Assembly (NCBI GenBank): GCA_016789005.1
Contig: JAEURA010000095.1
Location: 1-64,000, forward strand
DNA length: 64,000 bases
Source: Anaerolineae bacterium
Lineage (GTDB): Bacteria > Chloroflexota > Anaerolineae > Aggregatilineales > Phototrophicaceae
Reading direction: 5' to 3'
Of this stretch, positions 28,112 to 42,718 are shown one piece after another. The notes under the pieces are model-generated. The model did no database searches. It was not told the DNA's origin and was given only the letters and a program-made list of their open reading frames with translations. How positions within the stretch are numbered: the first letter of the stretch is position 1; the number at the start of each line of letters is the position of its first letter. Both the position numbers and the translations under genes were made by a program.

Positions 28112-28918
28112 CTATGTCTCGCTCGACTCGCGCGTGAATCGATACGCCAGCAGAATCGGGATGAGCGTCGTGGCGACGACGAACAGCGCGGCGACGTTGG
28201 TCACCGGGCGGTCGCGCGGGCGCTGAAGCTGGCTGAAAATCCAGATCGGTAGAGTCTGCTGCTGCCCAGCCGTAAACGTGGTGACGATGACCTCATCGAA
28301 CGACAGGGCGAACGACAGCATACCCCCGGCGAGGAGTGCCGTAGCGATATTCGGCAGGATGACGTAGCGAAAGGTCTGCCAGATCGATGCGCCAAGGTCC
28401 ATCGACGCCTCGACCTGCGAGTAGTTGGTCCGCCGCAGCCGGGCGACGACGTTGTTGTAGACCGTGACCACACAAAACGTGGCATGACCGATGACGATGG
28501 TCCAGAAGCTGAAATTCAGCCCCGAAAGATTCAGCGCGGAGCGCAGGGCGATGCCGGTGACAATGCCGGGCAGCGCGATGGGCAGGATGATCATCAACGA
28601 AATGGCGTCGCGCCCGAAGAATTTACTCCGGTAGATCGCCAGCGCCGCCAGCGTCCCCAGGACGATGGCAATCATCGTAGAGACGAGCGCAACCAGCAGC
28701 GATAAGCCCAGGGCGCTCCAGAAGTCGTTCCGGTTGAGCAGCACACCGAACCAGTCGGAGGTCAGCCCCGGCGGCGGAAACGTATATGCCGCCTCCTCGG
28801 TATTGAAGGCGTAAAGGAAGATCAGCAGGATCGGAAAATGCAGAAAGATCAGCACCGCTGTCGAGGCGGCGCGCAGCCCGATTCCGGCGCGGTTGATGAA
28901 ACGGTCCTCAGAGCGCAT
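28112..28918 (-). CDS. potC: Polyamine-type ABC importer, inner-membrane permease (PotC-like)
   Basis: Six hydrophobic segments and the permease signature [20 protein letters not shown] (EAA loop, about residues 170-190) identify a PotC/PotB-type subunit of 268 aa. I prefer ATG 28918 (MRSEDRF), which overlaps the potB stop by 11 bp; the frame also opens at 28945. Together with PotA, PotB and PotD it would import spermidine or putrescine, though related systems carry other cations. It is the last gene of the operon. Confidence 0.88.
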
Positions 28919-29852
28919 CGAACGCCCCCAATCGCCGCGCGCCAAGGAGATACACCCCCATGACGAGGATCGGCACGACGGTCATGGCGGCGGCGAGCGG
29001 GATATTGCCCGCTGTCCCCTGCTGCACCAGCACCGCCTGACCAATGAAGTAGCTGGAGTTGCCGAAGACGCCAGGGATGATGTAGTCGCCCAGCGTCAGC
29101 GAAAACGTGAAGATCGAGCCGGCGACCACGCCCGGAAACGCCAGCGGCAGGATGATCCTGCGGAAGGTATAGCCGGGTCGTGCGCCCAGGTCGCCGGACG
29201 CCTCGATCACCGACTTGGGCACCCGTTCCAGCGCCGCGTTGATCGGCAGAATCATGTACGGCAGCCAGATGTATACGAAGACGATGTAGACGCCAACGAT
29301 GGAAAAGGATAGTGACGGACCGCCAATGCCGGGGATCGACAGGATAGCGTCCAGGATGCCGGTCAGCCCCAGGGCGTTCGCCAGCCAGCCGATAATGCCT
29401 TCCTGGGCGAGGATCAGCTTCCAGGCGTAGATGCGCACCAGATAGCTCGACCAGAGGGGCAGCATGACGCCAAGGTAAAGCAGCGCCTTGGTTCGCCCCG
29501 AAGCGAAGCGCGCCATGAAGTATGCCAGCGGAAAGGCGAGCAGCGCACAGGTGAACGTCACCGCCGCCGCCATCACAATCGTCCGAAGAAAAATATCGAT
29601 GTTCTGCTGGAGCAGCAGTTCCTGGTAAGTCCGCAGCGTGAACTCACGAACGATCCGCCCGGTGAACCCATCCAGGTAGAAAAACCCCTGCGTCAGCATC
29701 GCCGTCAGCGAGCCGAGATAGATGACGCCGATCCACAGCAGGATCGGCAGCAGCAGCGCGATGACCGAGAGAAATGGGAAACGATACAGAACGATCGAAA
29801 TGCTGTGCAGAAGTCCCCGACGTTCAGCGAGAGGGGGTGGGGCGCTGATCAT
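28908..29852 (-). CDS. potB: Polyamine-type ABC importer, inner-membrane permease (PotB-like)
   Basis: A six-helix permease of 314 aa with the EAA loop [20 protein letters not shown] (about residues 215-235) and [20 protein letters not shown] after it, as in PotB. The start overlaps potA by 4 bp (ATGA), showing tight coupling. The long first periplasmic loop, which contacts the binding protein in this family, is present. Confidence 0.9.
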
Positions 29853-30916
29853 ACACCCGACTCCTCGACGATCTCGGTGCGCTGAAGCGTTCGGGTGAAA
29901 TCGCGCCGCCAGATCAGTTGAACGCGCTTGCCGCGTATGGTCAGCACGTCCATCGAAGTGGTCTCCAGATTTTGCTGCATCACCGCCAGGTGAGCGCGCG
30001 GCGAAGTCTCCAGCTCGACCAGGTAGCGCGTGTACATGCCCAGATAGACGACGTCCTGAACCGTGCCGTGAATGCTGTAGCTTTCCGGCGGGACCAGCGC
30101 ATCCGGCGCAGACAGGTGAATCTTCTCCGGGCGGATCGAGATGGTGGCGGCTTCACCGACGATTTGCCGCGCCACGCTGGCGTCGATCACGTTGGAAGTG
30201 CCGACGAAGCCGGCGACGAACGTCGTCGCCGGACGTTCATACACCTCGGCGGGAGACCCAACCTGCTCGATCCTGCCATGATTGAAGACCGCCAGCCGGT
30301 CACTCATGGTCAGCGCTTCTTCCTGATCATGTGTGACATAGATGAACGTGATGCCGACCTGCTGCTGAATGTTCTTCAGCTCGATCTGCATCTGCTGGCG
30401 CAGCTTAAGGTCGAGCGCACCCAGCGGCTCGTCGAGGAGCAGCACCGACGGGCGATTGACCAGCGCGCGCGCCAGCGCTACCCGCTGGCGCTGACCGCCG
30501 GAAAGCTGTGAAGGCTTTCGGTTCTCCATGCCCGACAGGCGCACCAGTTCCAGCATTTCGACGACGCGCTGTTCACGCTCCGCCCACGGCACCTTCTTGA
30601 TCATCAGACCGTAGGCGACGTTGTCGCCCACGGTCATGTGCGGGAAGAGCGCATAATCCTGAAAGACGGTGTTCACGTCGCGGTCATAGGGTGGCACTCC
30701 GCTGACATCTGTGCCGTGCAGCAGAATCTGCCCGCCGGACGCCCGCTCAAAGCCAGCGACCAGGCGCAGACAGGTCGTCTTGCCCGACCCCGATGGACCG
30801 AGCATCGAGAAGAACTCGCCGTCGTATACGTCGAGCGAGACATTATCGACCGCTTTGACCTCGCCGAAGTAGCGGCGAACATTGACCAGACTGACGGCGA
30901 CCGATTTCCCGTCCAT
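29849..30916 (-). CDS. potA: Polyamine-type ABC importer ATPase (PotA-like)
   Basis: ATPase of 355 aa. Walker A GPSGSGKTT (about residues 39-47), signature [15 protein letters not shown], Walker B VLLLDEPLGALD and the switch TYVTHDQEEAL-type loop are all present. The C-terminal ~110 residues form the TOBE regulatory domain (VQDVVYLGMYTRYLVELE) usual in PotA/MalK-like ATPases. Its start codon shares one base with the ALDH stop. Confidence 0.93.
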   Translation of the reverse strand: MDGKSVAVSLVNVRRYFGEVKAVDNVSLDVYDGEFFSMLGPSGSGKTTCLRLVAGFERASGGQILLHGTDVSGVPPYDRDVNTVFQDYALFPHMTVGDNVAYGLMIKKVPWAEREQRVVEMLELVRLSGMENRKPSQLSGGQRQRVALARALVNRPSVLLLDEPLGALDLKLRQQMQIELKNIQQQVGITFIYVTHDQEEALTMSDRLAVFNHGRIEQVGSPAEVYERPATTFVAGFVGTSNVIDASVARQIVGEAATISIRPEKIHLSAPDALVPPESYSIHGTVQDVVYLGMYTRYLVELETSPRAHLAVMQQNLETTSMDVLTIRGKRVQLIWRRDFTRTLQRTEIVEESGV

Positions 30917-32361
30917 CAGGCGTTCTTGACCATGACGTGCTTGGTGATGCGGTAATCATTGACCGCCTCGGCAGACAGGTCCTTGCCGAAGCCGGACTGC
31001 TTGAAGCCGCCGTGCGGCGTCTCCGATGCCAGCGGTATGTGATCGTTGATCCAGACGGTGCCGAATTCCAGGTCGCGGGCGATGCGCATGGCGCGCCCGA
31101 TGTCGCGCGTCCACACCGACGCCGCCAGCCCGTAGAGCACGTCATTGCCCAGGCGCACCGCCTCGGCTTCGCCGTCGAAGGCGCTGATCGTCAGCACCGG
31201 TCCGAAAACTTCGTTCTGGATGACCTCGGACTTCTGATCGGCATCGACGATCACCGTCGGCGAAAAGAAGTAGCCTTCCTGCCGGTCGTTCGGAATCATC
31301 CCGCCGGTCAGAATCTTCGCGCCAGAGGCGCGGGCGCGCTCGACAAACCCCTGGACTCGCTCGCGCTGCGTGCCAGAGATCAGCGGACCCATCTGGACGC
31401 CAGCTTCATACTGCGCGCCGACCTTGACGCCGCGCATCCCTTCGACGACCGCCTCCAGGACGTGGTTGTACTGCGACCGTTCGACGTAGACGCGCGTCGC
31501 CGCCGTGCAGTCCTGCCCGGTGTTGAAAGTCGAAGTCAGCGTGGCGACCGCCGCGAAGGTATCGACATCGACATCATCGAAGACGATCAGCGGCGCTTTG
31601 CCGCCCAACTCCAGATGCACACGTTTGAGGGTATCGGCGGCGGTTTTCATGATCTTCTTGCCGGTCCCGGTCGAGCCAGTCAGGCTGACCATGCGCACGT
31701 TCGGGTGTTCGACGAGCGCCTGCCCGGTCTCGTTGCCTCCGGTGACGACGTTGACGACCCCTTCGGGGATGCCCGCCTCGGCGATCAGCTCCGCCAGCAT
31801 GAGCGTCGTGACCGGTGTGGATGGCGCAGGCTTCAGCACGACGGTACAGCCCGCCGCCAGCGCCGGACCCAGCTTCCAGATCGCCATCATCAGCGGGTAA
31901 TTCCAGGGCGTCACCTGCCCGACGACGCCGACCGGCTCTTTGCGGTACATCGACGTGAAACCGGCGGCATATTCCCCGGCGCTCGCGCCGTGTGTATCGC
32001 GGGCGGCAGCGGCGAAGAAGCGGATGTTGTCGATGGCGAAAGGCATGTCCGCGCCCAGGCTGACGAATTCAAAGGGCTTGCCGGTATTATCGGATTCGGC
32101 GCGCGCGAAACGCTGAGCGTTCGCCTGCAGCAAATCCGCCAGTTTCCAGAGGGCGAGCGAACGCTGCGAAGGCGTCAGGCGCGACCAGCGTCCATCATAG
32201 AATGCAGTGTGCGCCGCTTTGACGGCGGCGTCTACGTCGGTGCGCCCGGCGTTCACCACCTGGGCGATAGGCTTACCGGTCGCCGGGTCTTCCACCGTCA
32301 TCGTGCCGCCGTCGATAGTGTTCGTCCAGCGGCCGTTTATCCAGAGTTGATACTGCTGCAT
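30916..32361 (-). CDS. Aldehyde dehydrogenase, gamma-aminobutyraldehyde dehydrogenase-like
   Basis: NAD(P)-dependent ALDH of 481 aa. The catalytic Cys is in NTGQDCTAATRVYV (about residue 286) and the general-base Glu in HLELGGKAPLIVFDD. GSTGTGKKIM is the cofactor loop. The GQDCTAATR form is characteristic of aminobutyraldehyde dehydrogenases (PatD), which oxidise 4-aminobutanal made from putrescine. Its place inside a polyamine importer operon supports this. The putrescine aminotransferase or oxidase that would act first is not nearby. Confidence 0.88.
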   Translation of the reverse strand: MQQYQLWINGRWTNTIDGGTMTVEDPATGKPIAQVVNAGRTDVDAAVKAAHTAFYDGRWSRLTPSQRSLALWKLADLLQANAQRFARAESDNTGKPFEFVSLGADMPFAIDNIRFFAAAARDTHGASAGEYAAGFTSMYRKEPVGVVGQVTPWNYPLMMAIWKLGPALAAGCTVVLKPAPSTPVTTLMLAELIAEAGIPEGVVNVVTGGNETGQALVEHPNVRMVSLTGSTGTGKKIMKTAADTLKRVHLELGGKAPLIVFDDVDVDTFAAVATLTSTFNTGQDCTAATRVYVERSQYNHVLEAVVEGMRGVKVGAQYEAGVQMGPLISGTQRERVQGFVERARASGAKILTGGMIPNDRQEGYFFSPTVIVDADQKSEVIQNEVFGPVLTISAFDGEAEAVRLGNDVLYGLAASVWTRDIGRAMRIARDLEFGTVWINDHIPLASETPHGGFKQSGFGKDLSAEAVNDYRITKHVMVKNA

Positions 32362-32414
32362 GATTCATCCTGAGGCTGAGGGGTTACGGGGCTGCAAGAA
32401 GGCTGTTTCTAACG

Positions 32415-32447
32415 ATTGAGAGGGACGAGCATACTCCGTCCCTCAAT
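32415..32447 (-). promoter_or_regulatory. Intercistronic hairpin downstream of potD
   Basis: ATTGAGAGGGACG (32415-32427) pairs with CGTCCCTCAAT (32437-32447) with a 2-base bulge. It lies between potD and the ALDH gene and has no U-tract, so it is more likely an mRNA-stabilising or attenuating structure than a full terminator. Confidence 0.45.
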
Positions 32448-32472
32448 GCCTGTGTCAGTTTTCGACCTCTCT

Positions 32473-32499
32473 CCGCTTCGCCGATGCCAGACGAAGCGG
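32473..32499 (-). promoter_or_regulatory. Second intercistronic hairpin after potD
   Basis: CCGCTTCG (32473-32480) and CGAAGCGG (32492-32499) form an 8-bp stem, extendable by flanking CTCT/AGAG. It starts 26 bases after the potD stop and would protect the 3' end of a potD-rich transcript. Confidence 0.45.
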
Positions 32500-32524
32500 A
32501 AAGAGATGAGACTCAGCGAAGCTA

Positions 32525-33709
32525 TTAGCGTCCGCCGATTACGCCGATGTAGGCGCTGACCCACTCGTAGTAAGGCACGCAGATGTCGCCGCGCCCATCC
32601 TGGCAGGTAGCGGTCGGCGTGCGCCAGAACTGAATACGGTCGAAATTCTCGAAACCGTTGACCTGGCAGCCCGTCTCGCCGAGCAGGTCATTGCCTTCGC
32701 AGGCAGCCGGCACCGCCGGGACGCTGCCGAACCAGGCGGCAAGGTCGCCCTGAAGGCTGAAGTTCAGGGAGTGTTCCAGCCACATATAGGCGCAGTTGGG
32801 GTGCGGGGCATCGACGTGCATCATGGTCGTATCCGCCCAACCGGTCGCCCCTTCTTCAGGGATGACGCTGCCCACAGCCGCGCCCTGCGACGCGAGCAGG
32901 TTCACCTGGAAGGGCCAGGAGCTGGAAGCGACAACGCCTTCGTTCACGAAGTCGTCGATCTGGATGAAAGCATCATGCCAGTAGCGACCGACCAGCGCGC
33001 GCTGCTGACGCAGCAGGTCGAGCGCGGCATTGAACTGATCGCGATCCAGCGAATAAGGATCGGTGATGCCCAGTTCCGGCTGGTGGTGCATCAGATACAT
33101 TGCCGCGTCGGCGACGTAAATCGGTCCGTCGTACGCCTGCACGCGCCCGGCGTTGCTTTCGCCGTCAGCAAGCGTCTGCTCTTCGAAGACCACGCTCCAG
33201 CTGGTCGGAGCCTGATCGCCAAAGGCGGCGGTGTTGTACATGAGGACATTGGCGCCCCACTGATACGGCACGCCATAGTGTTCCGCTGTACCATCGCCAT
33301 CGACATCGACGGTATGCCAGGGGGCGTTCTGCAGACGCTCATCGATCATGCCCCAGCTGGGGATCAGATCGAGATTGACTGGCTGAACGCGCCCGCCGTA
33401 GATCAGGCGCAGGCTGGCGTCGCCCGACGCCGTCACCAGATCGAACCGCCCTTCATTCATCAGCGCCACCATCTCGTCGGAGGTCGCCGCCGTCTTGACA
33501 TTGACAACGCAGCTCGTCGCCGCTTCAAATTCGGTCACCCAATCATATGCCGGGTCGGTTTCCCCGCGTTCGATATACCCTGCCCAGGCGATGATATCCA
33601 CCTGCCCCTCGCCTTCGCCGACAGCGGTCATCATGCCGTCCTGGGCGAACGCCGCGCTGAGCGGGAGCAGCAGAATTCCAACGATCAGCAATGCCAGCTT
33701 CAACTTCAT
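32525..33709 (-). CDS. potD: Polyamine-type ABC importer substrate-binding protein (PotD-like)
   Basis: The signal peptide MKLKLALLIVGILLLPLSAA ends at FAQD and has no lipobox Cys. The mature part has WAGYIERGETDPAYDW, TSDEMVALMNEGRFDLVTAS and YGVPYQWGANVLMYN, the layout of PotD/PotF-like proteins. ATG 33709 is chosen because AAGGAG precedes it by 7 bases and it begins exactly at the signal peptide; an in-frame start at 33820 would add an unlikely leader. As first gene of the operon with hairpins after it, it is probably the most strongly expressed. Confidence 0.92.
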   Translation of the reverse strand: MKLKLALLIVGILLLPLSAAFAQDGMMTAVGEGEGQVDIIAWAGYIERGETDPAYDWVTEFEAATSCVVNVKTAATSDEMVALMNEGRFDLVTASGDASLRLIYGGRVQPVNLDLIPSWGMIDERLQNAPWHTVDVDGDGTAEHYGVPYQWGANVLMYNTAAFGDQAPTSWSVVFEEQTLADGESNAGRVQAYDGPIYVADAAMYLMHHQPELGITDPYSLDRDQFNAALDLLRQQRALVGRYWHDAFIQIDDFVNEGVVASSSWPFQVNLLASQGAAVGSVIPEEGATGWADTTMMHVDAPHPNCAYMWLEHSLNFSLQGDLAAWFGSVPAVPAACEGNDLLGETGCQVNGFENFDRIQFWRTPTATCQDGRGDICVPYYEWVSAYIGVIGGR

Positions 33710-33767
33710 GTCAAGCTCCTTGAAAAACCTATAAGTGATGTCGGGATACAACCTGTCAACATTACGT

Positions 33768-33773
33768 ATTATA
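33768..33773 (-). promoter_or_regulatory. -10 element upstream of potD
   Basis: A perfect TATAAT on the minus strand, 58 bases before ATG 33709. The -35 region is weak. A TTGACA hexamer further downstream could serve a second start. Confidence 0.4.
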
Positions 33774-33830
33774 ACGGCAATGGGCGGAAGGTGCGAAATT
33801 CTGGCAGTCGAGAGGTCCAAAAGAAAACAA

Positions 33831-33865: not shown

Positions 33866-34852
33866 CTATTTCGCTGCCACCGCCTGAAGCGCCGACCAGA
33901 GTGAGTCGTCCAGCTCGATCATGCCGCTTTGCTGCACCGCCTCGGCGCGCTGATCGCCCCGTTCGCCGGGCATCAGGATTTCCTCGATCCCGGGCAGGCG
34001 TTTCGAACCTTTGACTCGCCCGACCACCTGTCCAACCCGTTCGATGAAGCCGTCGAAATCGGTCAGCAGCGCCGGATCGAGCGCCAGGAGCAGCGTCCCC
34101 CAGTCAACCTTGCGCCCATCGGCGGCGCGCTCCGTACCGACCAGCGCCCCGGTGAGGATCTCGACGATCAGCGACAATCCTCCCCCCTTGTGCCCCCCGA
34201 AGGTGCGTATCGCGCCCGCCAGCGCAGCAGCGGCGTCGGTCGTCGGCTGACCGGCGGCGTCATAGGCGACATCGGGCGGCAGCGCGCGCCCGGCGGTATG
34301 CGCCTCGACGATGCCGTAACGGGCAATCGCCGAGGTCGCCATGTCCAGGACAATCGGCTTGCCTTTCGTCGGAACGCCGATCGCCAGCGGATTTGTGCCG
34401 AACTGCGCCTCATACGAGCCGTGTGGGGCGACGTATTCGCCAGAACCGGCGAAGACGAAGCCGACCAGCCCCGCCCGCGCCAGGTCGTTGGCGTAGTAGC
34501 CGATCGCCCCTGTTGAAGAGTAAGTGTTGAACACACCAACCAGGGCGATTCCCTGCGCGCGAGCACGCTCGATGGCGATGTCGAGCGCGTAACGAACGGC
34601 GACCATGCCGGCGGAACGTCCGCCGTCGATGCGCGCCGAGATGGGTGTTTCGTGGACGATGCGCGGCGGCTGGCTGTTCGGATCGCGCGGCATCCCCGGA
34701 CCGATCAGCTTGACGACGCCCTGATTGTTACCCCGCATCTGCGCATAAAGCATCACATCGAGCATGGCAGCCGCCTCGTCTTCCGAGTACCCGCTGCCGC
34801 GCAGGATGGTCAGTGCGGTCTGGCGAAGCTGTTCTAACGCGATCCGTGCCAT
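33866..34852 (-). CDS. Ldh_2 (malate/L-lactate/ureidoglycolate) family protein with altered active site
   Basis: Overall fold signature of the Ldh_2 family: VAPHGSYEAQFGTNPLAIGV, IVLDMATSAIARYG and GGHKGGGLSLIVEILTGALVG. Members reduce 2-oxo acids or cyclic imines (malate, sulfolactate, ureidoglycolate, piperideine-2-carboxylate) with NAD(P)H. Two usually invariant His are missing: the RGxxSHG motif reads MRGNNQGVVKL (about residue 40) and the NSxHxG motif reads NTYSSTGAIGYY (about residue 120). ATG 34852 follows GAAGG; the frame opens further up inside hyuB. It is the last gene of the operon. It may be a divergent subfamily with different chemistry. Confidence 0.82.
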   Translation of the reverse strand: MARIALEQLRQTALTILRGSGYSEDEAAAMLDVMLYAQMRGNNQGVVKLIGPGMPRDPNSQPPRIVHETPISARIDGGRSAGMVAVRYALDIAIERARAQGIALVGVFNTYSSTGAIGYYANDLARAGLVGFVFAGSGEYVAPHGSYEAQFGTNPLAIGVPTKGKPIVLDMATSAIARYGIVEAHTAGRALPPDVAYDAAGQPTTDAAAALAGAIRTFGGHKGGGLSLIVEILTGALVGTERAADGRKVDWGTLLLALDPALLTDFDGFIERVGQVVGRVKGSKRLPGIEEILMPGERGDQRAEAVQQSGMIELDDSLWSALQAVAAK

Positions 34853-34877: not shown

Positions 34878-36605
34878 TTACGCCGGACGCCGGGCGCTGC
34901 GCAGCGCCTGCGTCGCCGCTGCATCGATGGTCATGGTCGCGGGATCGATCACCACGCCGTAGTCGCGCCGGGCACTTTCAACCGACACGTAGTCGTTCAT
35001 CACGTCCGACAGCACCTTTTGCGGATTGCGCTTGAACGGGTCGCCCCATCCACCGCCGCCGCCCGAATTATTGGAGAGCACATCCCCTTCGTCAAAGTAG
35101 TCGTAGATCGCGCCGGTCACCTGTTCCTGCGGCGTGTCCGGGCGCACGATCACCCGCCCGACCTCGCCTTCATGCCCGCCGGCGATTCCCCAAGGAGCCG
35201 ATTTGGTCTTCTTGACCAGGGTCAGCGCCGTCGTGGGATACATGAACCGGTAGATGCGCGTCACGCCGACGCCGCCGCGATATTCCCCCGCCCCGCCGGA
35301 GTCGCGCCGCATGTGGTAAGTGTCGATCAGCCAGGGAGCCTTGTTTTCCATAACCTCGACCGGGTTATTGCGGCAGCCGGGTTCGGAAAGATGCATGATC
35401 GCATCTTCGCCGTCACTGCCCTCGTACGCGCCGAAGCCGACCGCTTCGTTGGTCGCTTCCAGCCAGGGCAGCCCGGTTTCCGGGTGCATGCCCAAGCCCA
35501 TCACGTCGAACACGTCGCCGCCAGAGCAGGCGGGTACGCGGTCGGGCATGCCCTGCGCCAGCGCCTTCAGGATGACCTCCGGAGCCAGCAGACCGCACCA
35601 GACGGTGAAGGTCGGCGCGGGCGGCAGGGCGTGCATCAATTCGCCGGGAGGCGCTATCACCTTGAGGGGTCGGTAATGCCCTTCGTTGGCAGGGACATCC
35701 GGCGTGGTGATGCCCTTGAACGCCAGCCCGCTGACGCCGAGAGTCAAGCCGATCGGCAGGTTCATCGGTCCCTTGGTACGCCCGTGACTGCCCGTCCAGT
35801 CAACGATGAACTCGTCGTCGGTGACGGTGACAGTCACCTGCATCTTGAGCATCGTATCCTTGTCGATGCCGTCATCATCCGCCCAATCGACCGCCGTCCA
35901 GGTTCCCTTCGGCAGCTCCGCCAGACGCGCCCGCGCCAGACGTTCGCCGTGATCCAGAATCTCTTCGACCGCCGCACGGAAGGTTTCGATGCCGAAGCGA
36001 TCCACCAGTTCCGCCACGCGGCGCTCGCCCGTGCGGCAGGCGGAGATCTGCGCGTTCATGTCGCCGATCACCCGGTCGGGAAGGCGGCTGTTGAAGCGGA
36101 TCAGGTTGAGCAGTTCCTTATCCAGCACGCCTTCTTTGTAGATTTTCACGCCGGGCAGCAGCAGCCCTTCCTGGAAAACGTCGATCGAATCCAGGATATA
36201 GCCGGCGTCCTTCTGTCCCAGGTCCAGCCAGTGCTGCTTGATGGCGGTGAAGCCGATCAGCTCCGAGCGGAAGAAGATCGGGGAGACCGCCAGAACGTCC
36301 AGCGGATGCGCCGACGACCAGTAGGGATAGCTGGTCAGCATGAGATCGCCGGGGCGGATGTTGTCACGTCCCACGAAGTCGATAGTCTTCTGAATGCCGT
36401 AGTCGTTGCCGCGCGTGAATACCGCCAGACCGGGCGATTCTGCCAGCATGCGGCAGCGATCATCATAGATGCCCAGACCGAAGTCGCGGATCTCGTAGAT
36501 GATCGTGTTGTACGAGGTGCGCATCAGGTTGCGCTCCATCTCGTTGGCTGCCGAGAGGAGGTAGTTCCGAATGACTTCTACTGTGATTTGATCCAAATTC
36601 ACCAT
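34878..36605 (-). CDS. hyuB: Hydantoinase B/oxoprolinase family protein
   Basis: The C-subunit-type HyuB of ATP-dependent hydantoinases, 575 aa. RNYLLSAANEMERNLMRTSY near the start, RPGDLMLTSYPYWSSAHPLD, and DSGGAGEYRGGVGVTRIYRF near the end are conserved features of the superfamily. With HyuA it would open N-methylhydantoin, 5-oxoproline or a related lactam/imide at the cost of ATP. ATG 36605 (MVNLDQITVE) is preferred with AGGA just upstream; the frame reaches 36632, inside hyuA. It lies between hyuA and the Ldh-type gene with ~20-bp gaps. Confidence 0.92.
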   Translation of the reverse strand: MVNLDQITVEVIRNYLLSAANEMERNLMRTSYNTIIYEIRDFGLGIYDDRCRMLAESPGLAVFTRGNDYGIQKTIDFVGRDNIRPGDLMLTSYPYWSSAHPLDVLAVSPIFFRSELIGFTAIKQHWLDLGQKDAGYILDSIDVFQEGLLLPGVKIYKEGVLDKELLNLIRFNSRLPDRVIGDMNAQISACRTGERRVAELVDRFGIETFRAAVEEILDHGERLARARLAELPKGTWTAVDWADDDGIDKDTMLKMQVTVTVTDDEFIVDWTGSHGRTKGPMNLPIGLTLGVSGLAFKGITTPDVPANEGHYRPLKVIAPPGELMHALPPAPTFTVWCGLLAPEVILKALAQGMPDRVPACSGGDVFDVMGLGMHPETGLPWLEATNEAVGFGAYEGSDGEDAIMHLSEPGCRNNPVEVMENKAPWLIDTYHMRRDSGGAGEYRGGVGVTRIYRFMYPTTALTLVKKTKSAPWGIAGGHEGEVGRVIVRPDTPQEQVTGAIYDYFDEGDVLSNNSGGGGGWGDPFKRNPQKVLSDVMNDYVSVESARRDYGVVIDPATMTIDAAATQALRSARRPA

Positions 36606-36624
36606 GATCCTGCCTCGTTCTCCC

Positions 36625-38664
36625 TCAATCAACCTTCGCCACGTCGATAATCAGTTCGCCATAGGTTCCGACCAACAGCGTATCGCCGCTGTGGACCATC
36701 GTCGTCGAACTCGGCTCCTCGACGATGGCGGGACCGGCGACCTGGTCGCCCGCGCCGAGCTTAAAGCGGTCGTAGACCTGATAGGTGTGCCAGCCGGTTC
36801 CGCGCCGGTAGACGTTGCGTTCGCCCTTGCGCGCCGCTGCCACCTGCCCCGCCGCGATCTCCCATTTCGGCAGGCTGGGGCGCGGCAGCAGACCCACCGC
36901 GCGCAGACGCAGGGTGACGATCTCGATCGGGTCTTCGTGCATGCTGTGCCCATACTTCTGCTGGTGCAGCGTGTTAAAAGACTCGATGATTCCGCCGACG
37001 TGATCGGGCGTCAGAGTGATGCCCGGCATCGGCACGTTGACCGTATGTTCCTGCCCGCGATAGCGCAGTTCGGCAGTTGGCACGTAGGTGCGCCGCTCGG
37101 GATCAAAACCGTCAGCCGCCAGCGCTTCCCCGCCCTGCGCCGCCAGCTTGGCGTAGACCGCGTTGACCTGGGCAACATCAAGATTCGCCAGACTGGTGAT
37201 CGAGGTCTGCGAGTAATCGTGCACCACATCGACCATCAGCATGCCAAACGCCGAGAAGTTGCCCGGACCCGGAGGGATGATGGCGCGGGGGATGCCCAGT
37301 TCGCGCGCCACGTTCGCCGCGACAAAGGCGCCGCCGCCGCCGAAAGCGCACAGGGCGAAGTCGCGCGGGTGGTAGCCGCGTTCGATGGAGATCACGCGCA
37401 CCGCGCCTGCCATCTTGGCTTCGCTGATGTGGATGATGCCCGCTGCCGTCTCTTCGACATTCATGCCGATCTGATCGCCAATGCGCTGGATCGCCGCCTG
37501 CGCCAGCGACGGATCGATCTGGATTTCGCCCCCCAGGAAGTTGTTGGCGTCAAGGAAACCGGTGACCAGCGCGGCGTCGGTGAACGTGGCGTTCTGCCCG
37601 CCCTTGCCATAGCACGCCGGACCAGGGTCCGCCCCGGCGCTCTTCGGACCTACCTGAAGGTGTCCGCCGGCATCGACCCATGCCATCGAACCGCCGCCAG
37701 AGCCGATGGTGTGAATGTCAATCGTCGGAATGGAAATGGGAAGCGTCTGGAATTCGGCAACGTTCTCGATGCCGGGTTCACCGTTGGCGATCAGCGAGGC
37801 GTCCAGGCTTGTGCCGCCCATGTCGAAGGTGATCAGGTTGGGCTGCCCGATCAGCTTGCCCAGGTATGCCCCGCCGACCACACCGCCCGCCGGACCGGAC
37901 AGGACCAGGTGCACCGGCTGTTCCTTGGCAGAGTCCAGCGTCATCGCGCCGCCGCCGGAACGGGTCATCAGGAAGTGCCCATCGAAACCGCCCCTCACCA
38001 GCTCGTCGTTCAGCCGAGTCAGATAGGTGCGGGTGATCGGCTTGACGTAGGCGTCGATGACGGTCGTGCTGGTGCGCTCGTATTCGCGGTATTCGCGATT
38101 CAGATGGTGCGACAGCGTCACCGAAAGTTCCGGCGCGACTTCTTTGATCGCCTGTTCCATCAGCAATTCGTGTTCCGGGTTGACGTAGCTGTGCAGGAAG
38201 CAGACGGCAACCGACTGCGCCCCGTAGCCCTTGATCTTGCGGGCGACTTCGCGCGCCTGATCATAATTGAACGGCGTCAGGACGTTCCCCTTGTAGTTCA
38301 GGCGCTCTTCGACTTCAAAACATAGATAGCGCGGAACGAGCGATTCCGGCTTGTGGTACTTGAAATCGTACATCGGGCGGCGGTCGGTGCGCCCCAGGAT
38401 GTAGACATCGCGGAAACCCTGCGTCGTGACGATGGCGACCTTAGCGCCGGTTCGGGTCAGCATGGCGTTGATGCCGAGCGTCGTCCCGTGAACGAAGAAG
38501 CGAATGGCTTCCGGGGCTGCGCCTGCCTTCTGAAACCCTTGCAGGACGCCATCCGCCGGATTCGAGGGTGTCGTCTGCACTTTTTCCAACCGGATGCGCC
38601 CGGTGTCCTCGTCCAGAACGATCACGTCGGTGAACGTCCCGCCTACATCTACAGAAACACGCAT
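36625..38664 (-). CDS. hyuA: Hydantoinase A/oxoprolinase family protein
   Basis: ATP-binding partner of HyuB, 679 aa. VDVGGTFTDVIVLDEDTG (N-terminal Hydant_A_N signature), FVHGTTLGINAMLTRTGAK, LSGPAGGVVGGAYLG and FDMGGTSLDASLI identify the actin-like domain. GSGGGSMAWVDAGG and SAGADPGPACYG are strongly conserved in the family. Substrate class ranges from hydantoins and 5-oxoproline to ketones for carboxylases; no carboxylase gamma subunit is here. A dipeptide-type importer is 42 bp upstream in the same direction. Confidence 0.94.
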   Translation of the reverse strand: MRVSVDVGGTFTDVIVLDEDTGRIRLEKVQTTPSNPADGVLQGFQKAGAAPEAIRFFVHGTTLGINAMLTRTGAKVAIVTTQGFRDVYILGRTDRRPMYDFKYHKPESLVPRYLCFEVEERLNYKGNVLTPFNYDQAREVARKIKGYGAQSVAVCFLHSYVNPEHELLMEQAIKEVAPELSVTLSHHLNREYREYERTSTTVIDAYVKPITRTYLTRLNDELVRGGFDGHFLMTRSGGGAMTLDSAKEQPVHLVLSGPAGGVVGGAYLGKLIGQPNLITFDMGGTSLDASLIANGEPGIENVAEFQTLPISIPTIDIHTIGSGGGSMAWVDAGGHLQVGPKSAGADPGPACYGKGGQNATFTDAALVTGFLDANNFLGGEIQIDPSLAQAAIQRIGDQIGMNVEETAAGIIHISEAKMAGAVRVISIERGYHPRDFALCAFGGGGAFVAANVARELGIPRAIIPPGPGNFSAFGMLMVDVVHDYSQTSITSLANLDVAQVNAVYAKLAAQGGEALAADGFDPERRTYVPTAELRYRGQEHTVNVPMPGITLTPDHVGGIIESFNTLHQQKYGHSMHEDPIEIVTLRLRAVGLLPRPSLPKWEIAAGQVAAARKGERNVYRRGTGWHTYQVYDRFKLGAGDQVAGPAIVEEPSSTTMVHSGDTLLVGTYGELIIDVAKVD

Positions 38665-38706
38665 GGATTCATCTCCTTCACATGACGATACCGTAGAGTG
38701 AACATT

Positions 38707-39699
38707 CTATTTCTGGGCGAGCGGCTGCTCATGGAGATGGCAGCGAGCAACATGCCCATTGTCCCCAACTTCGACCAGCGCCGGGTCCACCCGCCTGCAA
38801 ACGTCCATCACATAGGGGCAGCGGGTATGAAAGCTGCACCCCGGCGGCAGGTTGACCGGGCTGGGGATTTCACCGGACGATACGACTTTCGCCGGTCTCA
38901 GCTTCTCCTCTTCTTCCGAAATGACCGGAATCGAGGACAGCAGCATCTGCGTATAGGGATGCTGGGGGTTTTCGAAGAACTGGCGTGTCGAGGCGACTTC
39001 GGCGATGCGCCCCAGGTACAGGATGGCGACTCGGCTGGCGAAATTGCGCATCACGCTCAAATCGTGCGAGATGAACAGATAGGTCAAGCCGAGTTCGCGC
39101 TGCAATCGGATCAGCAGATTAATGACCTTACCCTGCACGGAAACGTCTAGCGCCGAAGTTGGCTCGTCCAGCACGACCAGCGAGGGACGGGTCGCCAGGG
39201 CGCGGGCGATGGCGACGATCTGCCGCTCACCGCCGCTCAGCTGGCGCGGATACTTATGCATCACCTCCGCCGGCAGATCGACCAGATCGAGCAGGCGTAC
39301 CACCTCTTCCAGGCGATTCGCGCCCGCCTGATGAATGCGCAGCGGCAGTTCGAGGATCTGACGGACCGTCTGCCGGGGGTTGAGCGACGAGCTGGGGTCC
39401 TGAAAGACGATCTGGATCTCGCGCTTGAGGTCGAGCGGGCGTTTTTTCTCTCTGAACAGGTCGCGATCACGGTAGTAGATCGTGCCGCTGGTGGGCAGAT
39501 ACATGCCCATCGCGATGTAGGCGATGGTGCTCTTTCCCGAACCTGACTCGCCGACCAAGCCAACGGTTTCGCCGCGCCCGATCTCGAAGCTCACGCCATC
39601 GACCGCCTTGACCGTCACCGGCTCGCGGCGGATCAGCCCTTTGTGGGCGACGACGAAGTGTTTCTTCAGCGCCTCTACGCGCAGGACGATCTCACTCAT
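38707..39699 (-). CDS. dppF: Dipeptide/oligopeptide ABC importer ATPase (DppF-like)
   Basis: ATPase of 330 aa. Walker A GESGSGKST, signature LSGGERQIVAIARAL, Walker B LVVLDEPTSALDVS. The C-terminus has the oligo_HPY-type segment NLPPGCSFHTRCPYVMDVC with Cys that may hold an Fe-S cluster as in other peptide ATPases. The start overlaps dppD by 4 bp. The signature Gln-Arg pair is QIV here, a minor variant. Confidence 0.93.
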   Translation of the reverse strand: MSEIVLRVEALKKHFVVAHKGLIRREPVTVKAVDGVSFEIGRGETVGLVGESGSGKSTIAYIAMGMYLPTSGTIYYRDRDLFREKKRPLDLKREIQIVFQDPSSSLNPRQTVRQILELPLRIHQAGANRLEEVVRLLDLVDLPAEVMHKYPRQLSGGERQIVAIARALATRPSLVVLDEPTSALDVSVQGKVINLLIRLQRELGLTYLFISHDLSVMRNFASRVAILYLGRIAEVASTRQFFENPQHPYTQMLLSSIPVISEEEEKLRPAKVVSSGEIPSPVNLPPGCSFHTRCPYVMDVCRRVDPALVEVGDNGHVARCHLHEQPLAQK

Positions 39700-40724
39700 G
39701 TCAGCCCGCCTTCCTGCTGATAGGCGCGGACGCGCTCCGGCGCATCATACAGGAAGCACGCCGCCTGATGTTCGGCATCCTCGATGGCGAGCAGCGCCGG
39801 TTTCTGGCGCTTGCACACCGGCATGGCGTGCGGACAGCGCGGATGAAAGCGGCAGCCGGTGGGGGGATTCATGTAATCGGGGATTCGACCGGGAATGCCA
39901 TCGCTGATCCCGCCGCCGGAAAGGCGCGGCACTGCCGCCATCAATCCCTGCGTGTAAGGGTGCGATGGCTGGGCGAACAGGCGGCGCGTCGGGGCGACTT
40001 CAACGACGCTGCCGGCATACATGACGTACACGCGGTCGGTGATCTGCCGGACGATGCCGAGCGTGTGGGTGATCAGGATCACCGAGGTATGTTTCTCTTC
40101 GACCAGCCGATGCAGCAGCCGCAGGACCTGATCCTGGATGGTCACGTCGAGCGCCGTCCCCGGTTCGTCGGCGATCAGCAGCTCCGGCTCGGTGCTGAGC
40201 GCCATGCCGATGCAGACGCGCTGACGCATGCCGCCGCTGAGCTGCGCTGGATAGCTGTCCAGCAGCCGCTCCGGGTCCGCCAGCGCCACCTCGGAAAGCG
40301 CGCGAACCGCTCGGCGGCGCACTTCCTGGCGCGGCATCCTGCGGCTCTCCGCCGAGGCGTAGCGGATCGCCGCTTCGAGCTGCTGCCCAACCGTGAAAAC
40401 CGGATTGAGCGCCGCCGTCGGGTCCTGAAAGATCATCGAAATGCCCTGACCGCGCATGTCGGTCAGTTCGCGCTGGCGCATCTTGAGCACCTCGCGCCCC
40501 TTGAAGCGAATCTCACCGGAATTGATGACGGCTGGGGGCTGGGGCACAACGCGCAGGATCGTCTTCATGGTCGTCGTCTTGCCGCAGCCGGTCTCTCCCA
40601 CCAGACCGACTTTTTCACCGGCGTGGACCGTCAGATTGACCCCGTCCAGCACGCGCAGCATGCCGCCATAGACGCGGAAGCTGACGGAAAGGTTCTTGAC
40701 TTCAAGGAGCGGCGTTTCAGCCAT
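39696..40724 (-). CDS. dppD: Dipeptide/oligopeptide ABC importer ATPase (DppD-like)
   Basis: ATPase of 342 aa with Walker A GETGCGKTTTM, signature LSGGMRQRVCIGMAL, Walker B LLIADEPGTALDVT and the C-terminal MNPPTGCRFHPRCPHAMPVC Cys cluster found in DppD/OppD. The usual DEPTTALDVT is DEPGTALDVT. It starts 3 bp after the dppC stop. Confidence 0.93.
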   Translation of the reverse strand: MAETPLLEVKNLSVSFRVYGGMLRVLDGVNLTVHAGEKVGLVGETGCGKTTTMKTILRVVPQPPAVINSGEIRFKGREVLKMRQRELTDMRGQGISMIFQDPTAALNPVFTVGQQLEAAIRYASAESRRMPRQEVRRRAVRALSEVALADPERLLDSYPAQLSGGMRQRVCIGMALSTEPELLIADEPGTALDVTIQDQVLRLLHRLVEEKHTSVILITHTLGIVRQITDRVYVMYAGSVVEVAPTRRLFAQPSHPYTQGLMAAVPRLSGGGISDGIPGRIPDYMNPPTGCRFHPRCPHAMPVCKRQKPALLAIEDAEHQAACFLYDAPERVRAYQQEGGLT

Positions 40725-40727
40725 CGA

Positions 40728-41666
40728 TCACGACTCCTCCGCCGAAAACAGGTCGCGCAAGCCATCGCCCAGCAGATTGAAGCCGAGGACGACCACCACA
40801 ATCGCCAGCGCCGGAAAGATAGCGATCCACCACTGATCAGGCAGGAAGCGCGCCCCGGCAGCGACCATCGTCCCCAGCCCCGGCGTCGGCGGCTGAACCC
40901 CCAACCCGACGAAGCTGAGCATCGACCCGATGATGACCACCCAGCCCATGTCCAGGCTCATCTTGGTGAGGATCGGCGAGACCATGTTGGGCAGAATCTC
41001 GCGGAACAGGATATGTCCTGTGCCCGCCCCGATGGTCTCGGCGGAGACGACGAAATACTCGTTGCGCAGGGCGCTCGCCAACCCATAGACGAGGCGGGTA
41101 TACCAGGGCCACCACATCAGCGAGACGGCAAGCATGGCGTTGGTCAGGTTGGGCTGCAGGACGGAGGCGACCGCCAGCGCCAGGATCAGCGGCGGAACCG
41201 AGAGGAAAATGTCGGTCACGCGCATGATGATGGTATCGATGATCGTCCCCTGGAAGTAGCCGGCGACCAGACCGAGCAGGACGCCGACCGGAACCACGAG
41301 GCTGAGCACCGCCACCCCCATCACCAGCGCATAGCGAAAGCCAAAAATGCAGCGGCTGAGGATGTCGCGCCCGATCTCGTCCGTGCCGAACAGGTACTGC
41401 CCACCCGGCGGCTTACTGGCGTTGGCGAAATCGGTGAACGGTTCGGCGTGCTGCGGATAAGGCGCGACGAACGGCGCGAAGATCGCCATCAGGGTGATCG
41501 TCACGACCATGATCAGCCCCAGCACCGACAGCGGATTGCGCGAGAACTTGTACCATGCCCGTCCCCAGCGTTCACGGCGATTCCTTCGTTCGATCTGGGC
41601 AAGCCGATGGGGATCAATCGCCGACCGCCCCACCGCGTGATCCGGTTGAGAGGCGTTGTTGAGCAT
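40728..41666 (-). CDS. dppC: Dipeptide/oligopeptide ABC importer permease (DppC-like)
   Basis: Six membrane helices in 312 aa. The N-terminal cytoplasmic segment ends FSRNPLSVLGLIMV, a common DppC motif, and GTDEIGRDILSRCIFGFRYAL and HILFREILPNMVSP (EAA loop) follow. ATG 41666 overlaps the dppB stop by one base (TGATG); a TTG at 41669 is less likely. Confidence 0.93.
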   Translation of the reverse strand: MLNNASQPDHAVGRSAIDPHRLAQIERRNRRERWGRAWYKFSRNPLSVLGLIMVVTITLMAIFAPFVAPYPQHAEPFTDFANASKPPGGQYLFGTDEIGRDILSRCIFGFRYALVMGVAVLSLVVPVGVLLGLVAGYFQGTIIDTIIMRVTDIFLSVPPLILALAVASVLQPNLTNAMLAVSLMWWPWYTRLVYGLASALRNEYFVVSAETIGAGTGHILFREILPNMVSPILTKMSLDMGWVVIIGSMLSFVGLGVQPPTPGLGTMVAAGARFLPDQWWIAIFPALAIVVVVLGFNLLGDGLRDLFSAEES

Positions 41667-42718
41667 CAATCGCTCCTTGCCGCGCGCAGGCGGATGCGGG
41701 GGTCGAGCGCCCCGACGACAAGATCGACCACGATATTCATGAGGATGAAGACGACGCCCAGGATAAGGATCACGGCGGTGATGGCGTTCAGGTCCTTGCG
41801 CAGCATGGCGTTGACGCCATAGCGTGAGATGCCGGGCCAGTTGAAGATCAGTTCGACCAGGAAGGCATTGGCGAGGTTTGCCGCGAAATCGAGGGCGAAG
41901 ATCGAGATGGTCGGGATCAGCGAAGGTTTCAGCAGAAATCGCCCCATCACGACGCGCTCCGGAATGCCCAGAGCGCGTTCGGCAGCGATGTAGTCCTTGT
42001 TCAGGTTGTCCGCCATCGTCGCACGGGTGATGCGCGCTTCCTGCGCCATCGACCCCAGCGCCAGGGCGACACCGGGCATGATCAGGTGCTGAAGCGCATC
42101 CCAGAACGTTGCCAGCTGCCCCGCCAGCAGGGCGTCAACGGTGATCAGCCCGGTGACCAGGGGCGGTTTGGGCACGCCTTCGCTCAGCCGACCGATAGAC
42201 GGCAGCCAATCGAGCGCCAGCCCGAAAACCAGCAGGAAGATGATGGCGAAGATGAAGGCGGGCGTGACCACACCGGCATAAGAGAGGATGCGAATCAGGT
42301 TGTCCACCCAGGAGTCTTTGTAGCGCGCGGAAAGCGTGCCGAGCGCGATCCCTCCGACCAGGGTGAGGACGCCGGCAAAGATCACCAGTTCAAGCGACGC
42401 CGGCAGGAATTCGGCGATGTCAGTGGTGACGCTGCGGCGGGTGACCAGCGACATGCCGAAGTCGCCGCGCAGCGCATCGCCCAGCCAGTAGGTGTACTGC
42501 ACCGGCAGCGTGTCGTTGAGATGCATCTCTTCCCGCAGCCGGTCCACCGTCTCCTGCGGCGCGCGCGCGCCAAGCGCAGTCCGTGCCGGGTCGCCGGGCA
42601 GCACGCGCGCGATCGTGAAGATCAGGATCGAAAGCCCGAACAGGACGAAGATCGACTGGACCAGCCGCCTCGCCAGAAATAAGCCCAACCGCCGCAGCGC
42701 GTCCGCTTGTCTTTGCAT
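41666..42718 (-). CDS. dppB: Dipeptide/oligopeptide ABC importer permease (DppB-like)
   Basis: Permease of 350 aa. The N-terminus ARRLVQSIFVLFGLSILIFT and DTLPVQYTYWLGDALRGDFG are typical of DppB. The EAA region reads RATMADNLNKDYIAAERALG. PGISRYGVNAMLRKDLN near the C-terminus is also conserved. The gene lies after the binding-protein gene, from which a strong hairpin separates it. Confidence 0.93.
   Translation of the reverse strand: MQRQADALRRLGLFLARRLVQSIFVLFGLSILIFTIARVLPGDPARTALGARAPQETVDRLREEMHLNDTLPVQYTYWLGDALRGDFGMSLVTRRSVTTDIAEFLPASLELVIFAGVLTLVGGIALGTLSARYKDSWVDNLIRILSYAGVVTPAFIFAIIFLLVFGLALDWLPSIGRLSEGVPKPPLVTGLITVDALLAGQLATFWDALQHLIMPGVALALGSMAQEARITRATMADNLNKDYIAAERALGIPERVVMGRFLLKPSLIPTISIFALDFAANLANAFLVELIFNWPGISRYGVNAMLRKDLNAITAVILILGVVFILMNIVVDLVVGALDPRIRLRAARSD

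Follow-up and report, generated by a model that had tools for sequence, protein, structure and literature searches.

Can a protein of the Ldh_2 family lose both of its conserved histidines and still work as an oxidoreductase? Two His are reported to be invariant in a family alignment that includes 1vbi, and the authors of the study on AllD, (S)-ureidoglycolate dehydrogenase, proposed that one of the two serves as catalytic residue throughout the superfamily (PMC3527362). His116 is the proposed general base in AllD, and the equivalent of His44 is the proposed general acid in DpkA, delta1-piperideine-2-carboxylate reductase; among the AllD mutants, activity is abolished in H116A and R48A and strongly lowered in H44A and S43A, with some of it left in H44A (kcat of 1.76 against 57 per s) (PMC3527362). 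The question is raised by one gene in the window (i.e. the whole stretch of 64 000 nucleotides that was analysed), which is read on the minus strand from an ATG at 34852 to 33866, with a Shine-Dalgarno-like AGAAGG 5 nt ahead of the ATG; its ORF translation gives a product of 328 a.a. The preliminary description of this DNA, which left the strand unstated, quoted two motifs of this protein, and both are present: MRGNNQGVVKL (residues 39–49) and NTYSSTGAIGYY (residues 109–120).

The window protein matches the Pfam family Ldh_2 (PF02615) over the full length of the profile (positions 2–333 of 333) with 279.2 bits and an E-value of 5.9e-83 (gathering threshold 38.8). All NCBIfam equivalogs of the family, however, match it below their own cut-offs (e.g. 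the AllD equivalog with 146 bits against 496.2, and L-sulfolactate dehydrogenase, NF040650, with 193.6 against 500 bits); it thus belongs to the fold family without being any of the named enzymes. The closest solved relatives by sequence are L-sulfolactate dehydrogenase (2x06, 136.8 bits), 3uoe and AllD (1xrh). The AF2 model has a mean pLDDT of 96.8, and VIA-align superposes 15 family structures on it with Z of 33–40 over 294–324 residues, i.e. the model has the three-domain NAD(P)H oxidoreductase fold; the next best fold match scores Z 4.9, and Foldseek-derived matches outside the family (Z under 5) were given no weight. The closest fold is that of the type 2 malate/lactate dehydrogenase of T. 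thermophilus (1x0a/1vbi; Z 40.1, 319 residues, 1.6 A), but identity to it is 32%, and it is among the enzymes in which both His are reported invariant (PMC3527362). The AllD–NADH–glyoxylate complex (4fju) follows with Z 37.4 (318 residues, 2.2 A), then ComC (2x06; Z 36.2), which is the best PDB sequence match but has both His itself, and DpkA (1wtj/2cwh; Z 35.8). Judged by its sequence, then, the window protein is a homologous member of the Ldh_2 fold family and not a canonical Ldh_2 enzyme.

The reference alignment comprises AllD (1xrh), ComC (2x06) and 3uoe, and the active-site geometry of the window protein is taken from its alignment to AllD. As the preliminary description had claimed, both family His are missing in this alignment of crystal-structure sequences: N43, Q44, K48 and S113 stand at S43, H44, R48 and H116 of AllD (Table 1). 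It had also called the remaining motifs intact. This holds for the cofactor residues T153, P155, D170, K222 and G296 (AllD T156, P158, D174, K224 and G306), which are all kept and invariant in the clade described below, but it does not hold for S43 and R48 (replaced by N and K), for the segment of AllD carrying Tyr52 (deleted), or for a Lys that is common outside the clade and is Gly (G180) here. S137 and G138 occupy the slots of AllD S140 and D141. Asp308 of AllD is replaced by R298, as DpkA likewise has Arg at its NADPH 2'-phosphate position; by this alignment, R298 suggests that the cofactor may be NADP(H).

Table 1. Coordinates, strand and basis of the features at the Ldh_2-type locus
Feature	Position in window	Strand	Basis
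Ldh_2-fold protein without both family histidines	33866..34852	-	translation, Pfam, AF2, VIA-align
Motif 1, RGNNQGVVKL, residues 40–49, in place of RGxxSHGxxR (S43->N43, H44->Q44, R48->K48)	34706..34735	-	AllD/ComC/3uoe alignment
Motif 2, NTYSSTGAIGY, residues 109–119, in place of xNxHxG (H116->S113, one-residue insertion)	34496..34528	-	alignment
GTNP, residues 152–155; T153 and P155 at the cofactor site (AllD T156, P158), kept	34388..34399	-	alignment; roles from PMC3527362
D170 (AllD D174), nicotinamide-ribose contact; kept, invariant	34343..34345	-	alignment; PMC3527362
K222 (AllD K224), cofactor phosphate; kept, invariant	34187..34189	-	alignment; PMC3527362
R298 at the AllD D308 position, invariant in the clade; DpkA equivalents are the NADPH 2'-phosphate Arg pair	33959..33961	-	alignment; PMC3527362
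HyuB/caprolactamase-beta-like gene, 25 bp upstream of the Ldh_2 gene	34878..36632	-	NCBIfam CapB, 246 bits, below cut-off
HyuA/caprolactamase-alpha-like gene	36625..38664	-	NCBIfam CapA, 522 bits, below cut-off
YdcS-like polyamine-type ABC solute-binding protein, downstream; synteny shared with G001	32525..33820	-	NCBIfam YdcS, 578 bits, below cut-off

We found 50 distinct homologues that all have N43, Q44, K48 and T114 and have His at neither site, so the double loss is not a product of chance or sequencing error. A clade with the same substitutions, which the preliminary description had envisaged, thus exists, and it lies within one Chloroflexota family. T114 and the GAIG of motif 2 are invariant in it, and the slot of His116 (position 113) holds P in 30 members, S in 18 and A in two. 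Since this slot drifts and the slot of D141 is variable in the clade, neither offers an acid/base candidate. Nor is any His column conserved among the 50 members, which speaks against another active-site His, the finding that could have overturned the earlier claim. With both His gone and no substitute conserved, acid/base catalysis by His116 or His44 is excluded on sequence grounds; the conclusion drawn earlier, that a normal mechanism seems impossible, stands to this extent but is too strong, as another proton donor or a substrate that needs none is conceivable.

The limits of the clade are sharp. In a genome-wide scan and in searches of relatives, homologues of the window protein are 51–94% identical to it, after which identity drops from 51% to 36%; the scan of genome contigs relies on exact short peptides, and remote members elsewhere could be missed. 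The score of the clade profile drops from 505 bits to 216 bits beyond the clade. Of 98 genomes in the family to which the window belongs, 50 gave a profile match, as a single copy each (in genus g17, 33 of 34 genomes carry the gene), and in a draw of 400 genomes from the phylum no His-less member was found outside this family. A wider clade was rejected on this drop in identity and on the lack of further members in the phylum sample. The tree comprised 96 sequences; its 23 His-less members group as one clade (support 100/100), the stem of which measures 1.26 changes per column. Loss of both His was seen in none of 74 distinct Ldh_2 sequences sampled outside the clade: 60 have both, ten have Gln at H44 together with H116, three lack only H116, and one is gapped at H44. 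Our search of the open-access literature found nothing relevant on a His-less Ldh_2 subfamily.

Partial losses occur around the clade. The other Ldh_2 protein of the window genome (L002, G000:C132:13705-14712) has H116 but carries Gln in place of H44 (QGQGVRR), and nine further sampled proteins of the same Chloroflexota family share this pattern, so loss of H44 alone is common there. These Gln44 groups resemble the window protein in the replacement of H44 (QGQG motif), but they keep H116, are about 31–34% identical to it and form a separate clade. Three isolated proteins on long branches (L022, L026 and L058) keep H44 and lack only H116 (G, N and R in its place). Natural loss of a catalytic His is also described for LarA homologues, another 2-hydroxy-acid enzyme family; their fold and cofactor are unrelated and one His only is lost (PMC12611868).

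The His-less gene is under purifying selection and is conserved in single copy: comparison of the window gene with its nearest orthologue gives a dN/dS of 0.11 (0.029/0.272). Of the 11 active and cofactor sites mapped from AllD, eight are invariant in the clade, against 57 of the 317 other sites (Fisher p = 1.6e-4), and because the mapped sites are invariant more often than the remainder, the pocket is held and not decaying. The slots of H116, S140 and D141 vary. The five cofactor sites are expected to stay; the informative invariant sites are N43, Q44 and K48 on the substrate side.

The genomic contexts of the gene are diverse. The preliminary description tentatively linked the protein to a hyu pathway, but among the clade members whose flanks were read, hyuAB adjoins the His-less gene in the window only. 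In G001, which has a 94%-identical orthologue, an M24 peptidase gene takes the place of hyuAB and no HyuB orthologue was found in the genome (best match 30%); in G002 an 80%-identical HyuB lies on a contig other than that of the Ldh_2 gene. The hyu link is therefore one of adjacency in the window and does not extend to the clade, and a role in a hyu pathway was rejected. The best-conserved partner is an IolE-like TIM barrel of the xylose-isomerase type. Of the 33 g17 genomes with the His-less gene, 31 encode this barrel directly upstream on the same strand (e.g. in G823 a gap of 29 bp separates the two matches), and the remaining two have it farther away or on a different contig; in G817, the sole g17 genome without the Ldh_2 gene, the IolE-like gene is missing as well. 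In genus g13 the His-less gene often follows dppBC and DUF4432 genes and in one case occurs with a LacD-like aldolase gene; in G002 and G013 it comes after an SDR gene and one of the creatininase family, and in G795 and G801 it adjoins a D-threonine-aldolase-like gene. These neighbours are genes of small-molecule catabolism, but the partners differ between genera and so imply no single substrate.

Other genes around the locus form runs of their own. Positions 28112–33820 of the window, directly downstream, hold YdcS/PotABC-type polyamine ABC transporter genes and an aminobutyraldehyde dehydrogenase gene (687.9 bits, above its subfamily cut-off); this run is conserved with G001 and suggests putrescine catabolism. 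Positions 34878–42718 hold dppBCDF-type transporter genes and then the caprolactamase-like hyuAB in one same-strand run, possibly an operon for the uptake and hydrolysis of a cyclic amide or lactam. As for other HyuB genes, G002 has three same-strand paralogues within 8 kb (L154 region, G002:C83:64480-72079), one of them the 80%-identical protein, and the window genome has a second homologue (31%; G000:C342:8468-10042) with one in-frame TAG inside a long open frame.

What does the protein do? The proteins of its clade must either use a different proton chemistry or have a role other than ordinary dehydrogenation. We favour an active oxidoreductase that depends on NAD(P), acts on small polar metabolites and has a rebuilt, histidine-free site, catalysis itself being inferred, and give this reading a probability of about one half. 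It is preferred on account of the held pocket, in which the substrate-side residues N43, Q44 and K48 are informative. The metabolic neighbour genes (IolE-like, DUF4432, LacD-like, Dpp-type transport, SDR, creatininase-like and D-threonine-aldolase-like) count for it, and so does the residual activity of AllD H44A, although H116A and R48A are dead (PMC3527362). Against it count the drifting His116 slot and the variable D141 slot, the Gly at position 180 in place of the common Lys, and the differing partners, which point to no single substrate. A decaying gene or an error of assembly or translation might be suspected in a single draft genome of 352 contigs, but the chance of this is close to nil: the frame is open, the dN/dS and the confident predicted fold argue against decay, and the recurrence of the same changes in 50 distinct sequences from many genomes, with the profile survey of genomes, refutes it.

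It is rather unlikely that the protein is a pseudoenzyme, with no chemistry of its own, whose role is to bind NAD(P)(H) or a metabolite and to regulate a partner (e.g. the IolE-like protein) or serve as its scaffold. Such a protein could well have lost both His, R48 and the Tyr52 segment and let the His116 slot drift while keeping its cofactor residues, and its gene would have a fixed partner, as is seen within one genus; NAD binding alone, however, would not require N43, Q44, K48 and T114 to stay invariant over about 50% divergence, and a change of partners between genera is unusual for a dedicated regulator. We consider it less probable again that NAD is held as a prosthetic group in an epimerase, isomerase or transhydrogenase-type reaction without net redox, acting on the sugar-like substrate of the IolE-like neighbour. 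Genes of sugar interconversion among the partners (IolE-like, DUF4432 and LacD-like) are consistent with this, and the malate-lactate transhydrogenase of Veillonella, of the Ldh_2/AllD families, reportedly keeps its NAD bound (PMC13034625), but the clade has no residue that would mark a tight hold on NAD and nothing here indicates non-redox chemistry. It is improbable that the protein is an ordinary Ldh_2 dehydrogenase with a different His in the catalytic role. The candidate would be H144, which is His in 37 of the 50 members, but it is Tyr in 12 and Asp in one, and it aligns near F147 of AllD, lining the adenine end rather than the nicotinamide end; position 100 is His in 43 members but Gln in the window protein.

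For the favoured reading, an active enzyme with rebuilt chemistry, the following steps can be proposed. The active site would have been remodelled a single time and retained ever since; the simplest placement of this event is in the ancestor of the Chloroflexota family now carrying the gene, or close to it. NAD(P)H would bind in the usual extended mode, and hydride would be exchanged, at the exposed B face, with a small polar metabolite, perhaps a sugar-derived keto or hydroxy compound or a cyclic imine, whose carboxylate or carbonyl K48 may anchor in place of R48. Proton transfer could then involve K48, T114 or an ordered water in place of His, or the substrate could be an iminium, or already protonated or enolisable, so that no proton donor is needed; the general acid proposed for DpkA (the His44 equivalent) has no counterpart here. 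That hydride transfer proceeds without an active-site His by means of the newly fixed Asn-Gln-Lys-Thr set is a tentative reading, to which we give slightly less than even odds, and it would break the published proposal that one of the two His is always used.

The loss of both His in a conserved Ldh_2 clade, apparently under selection, contrasts with the invariance of these residues in the literature, and automatic labels such as 'malate/lactate dehydrogenase' are unsafe for His-less genes. New chemistry versus binding is now a question at the level of a clade, with the IolE-like gene as a clear partner. If the proteins are inactive, they would clearly exemplify the conversion of a dehydrogenase into a binding protein; if they are active, the proton-transfer step of the Ldh_2 fold would be more replaceable than has been thought, and direct swaps of these residues could probe it.
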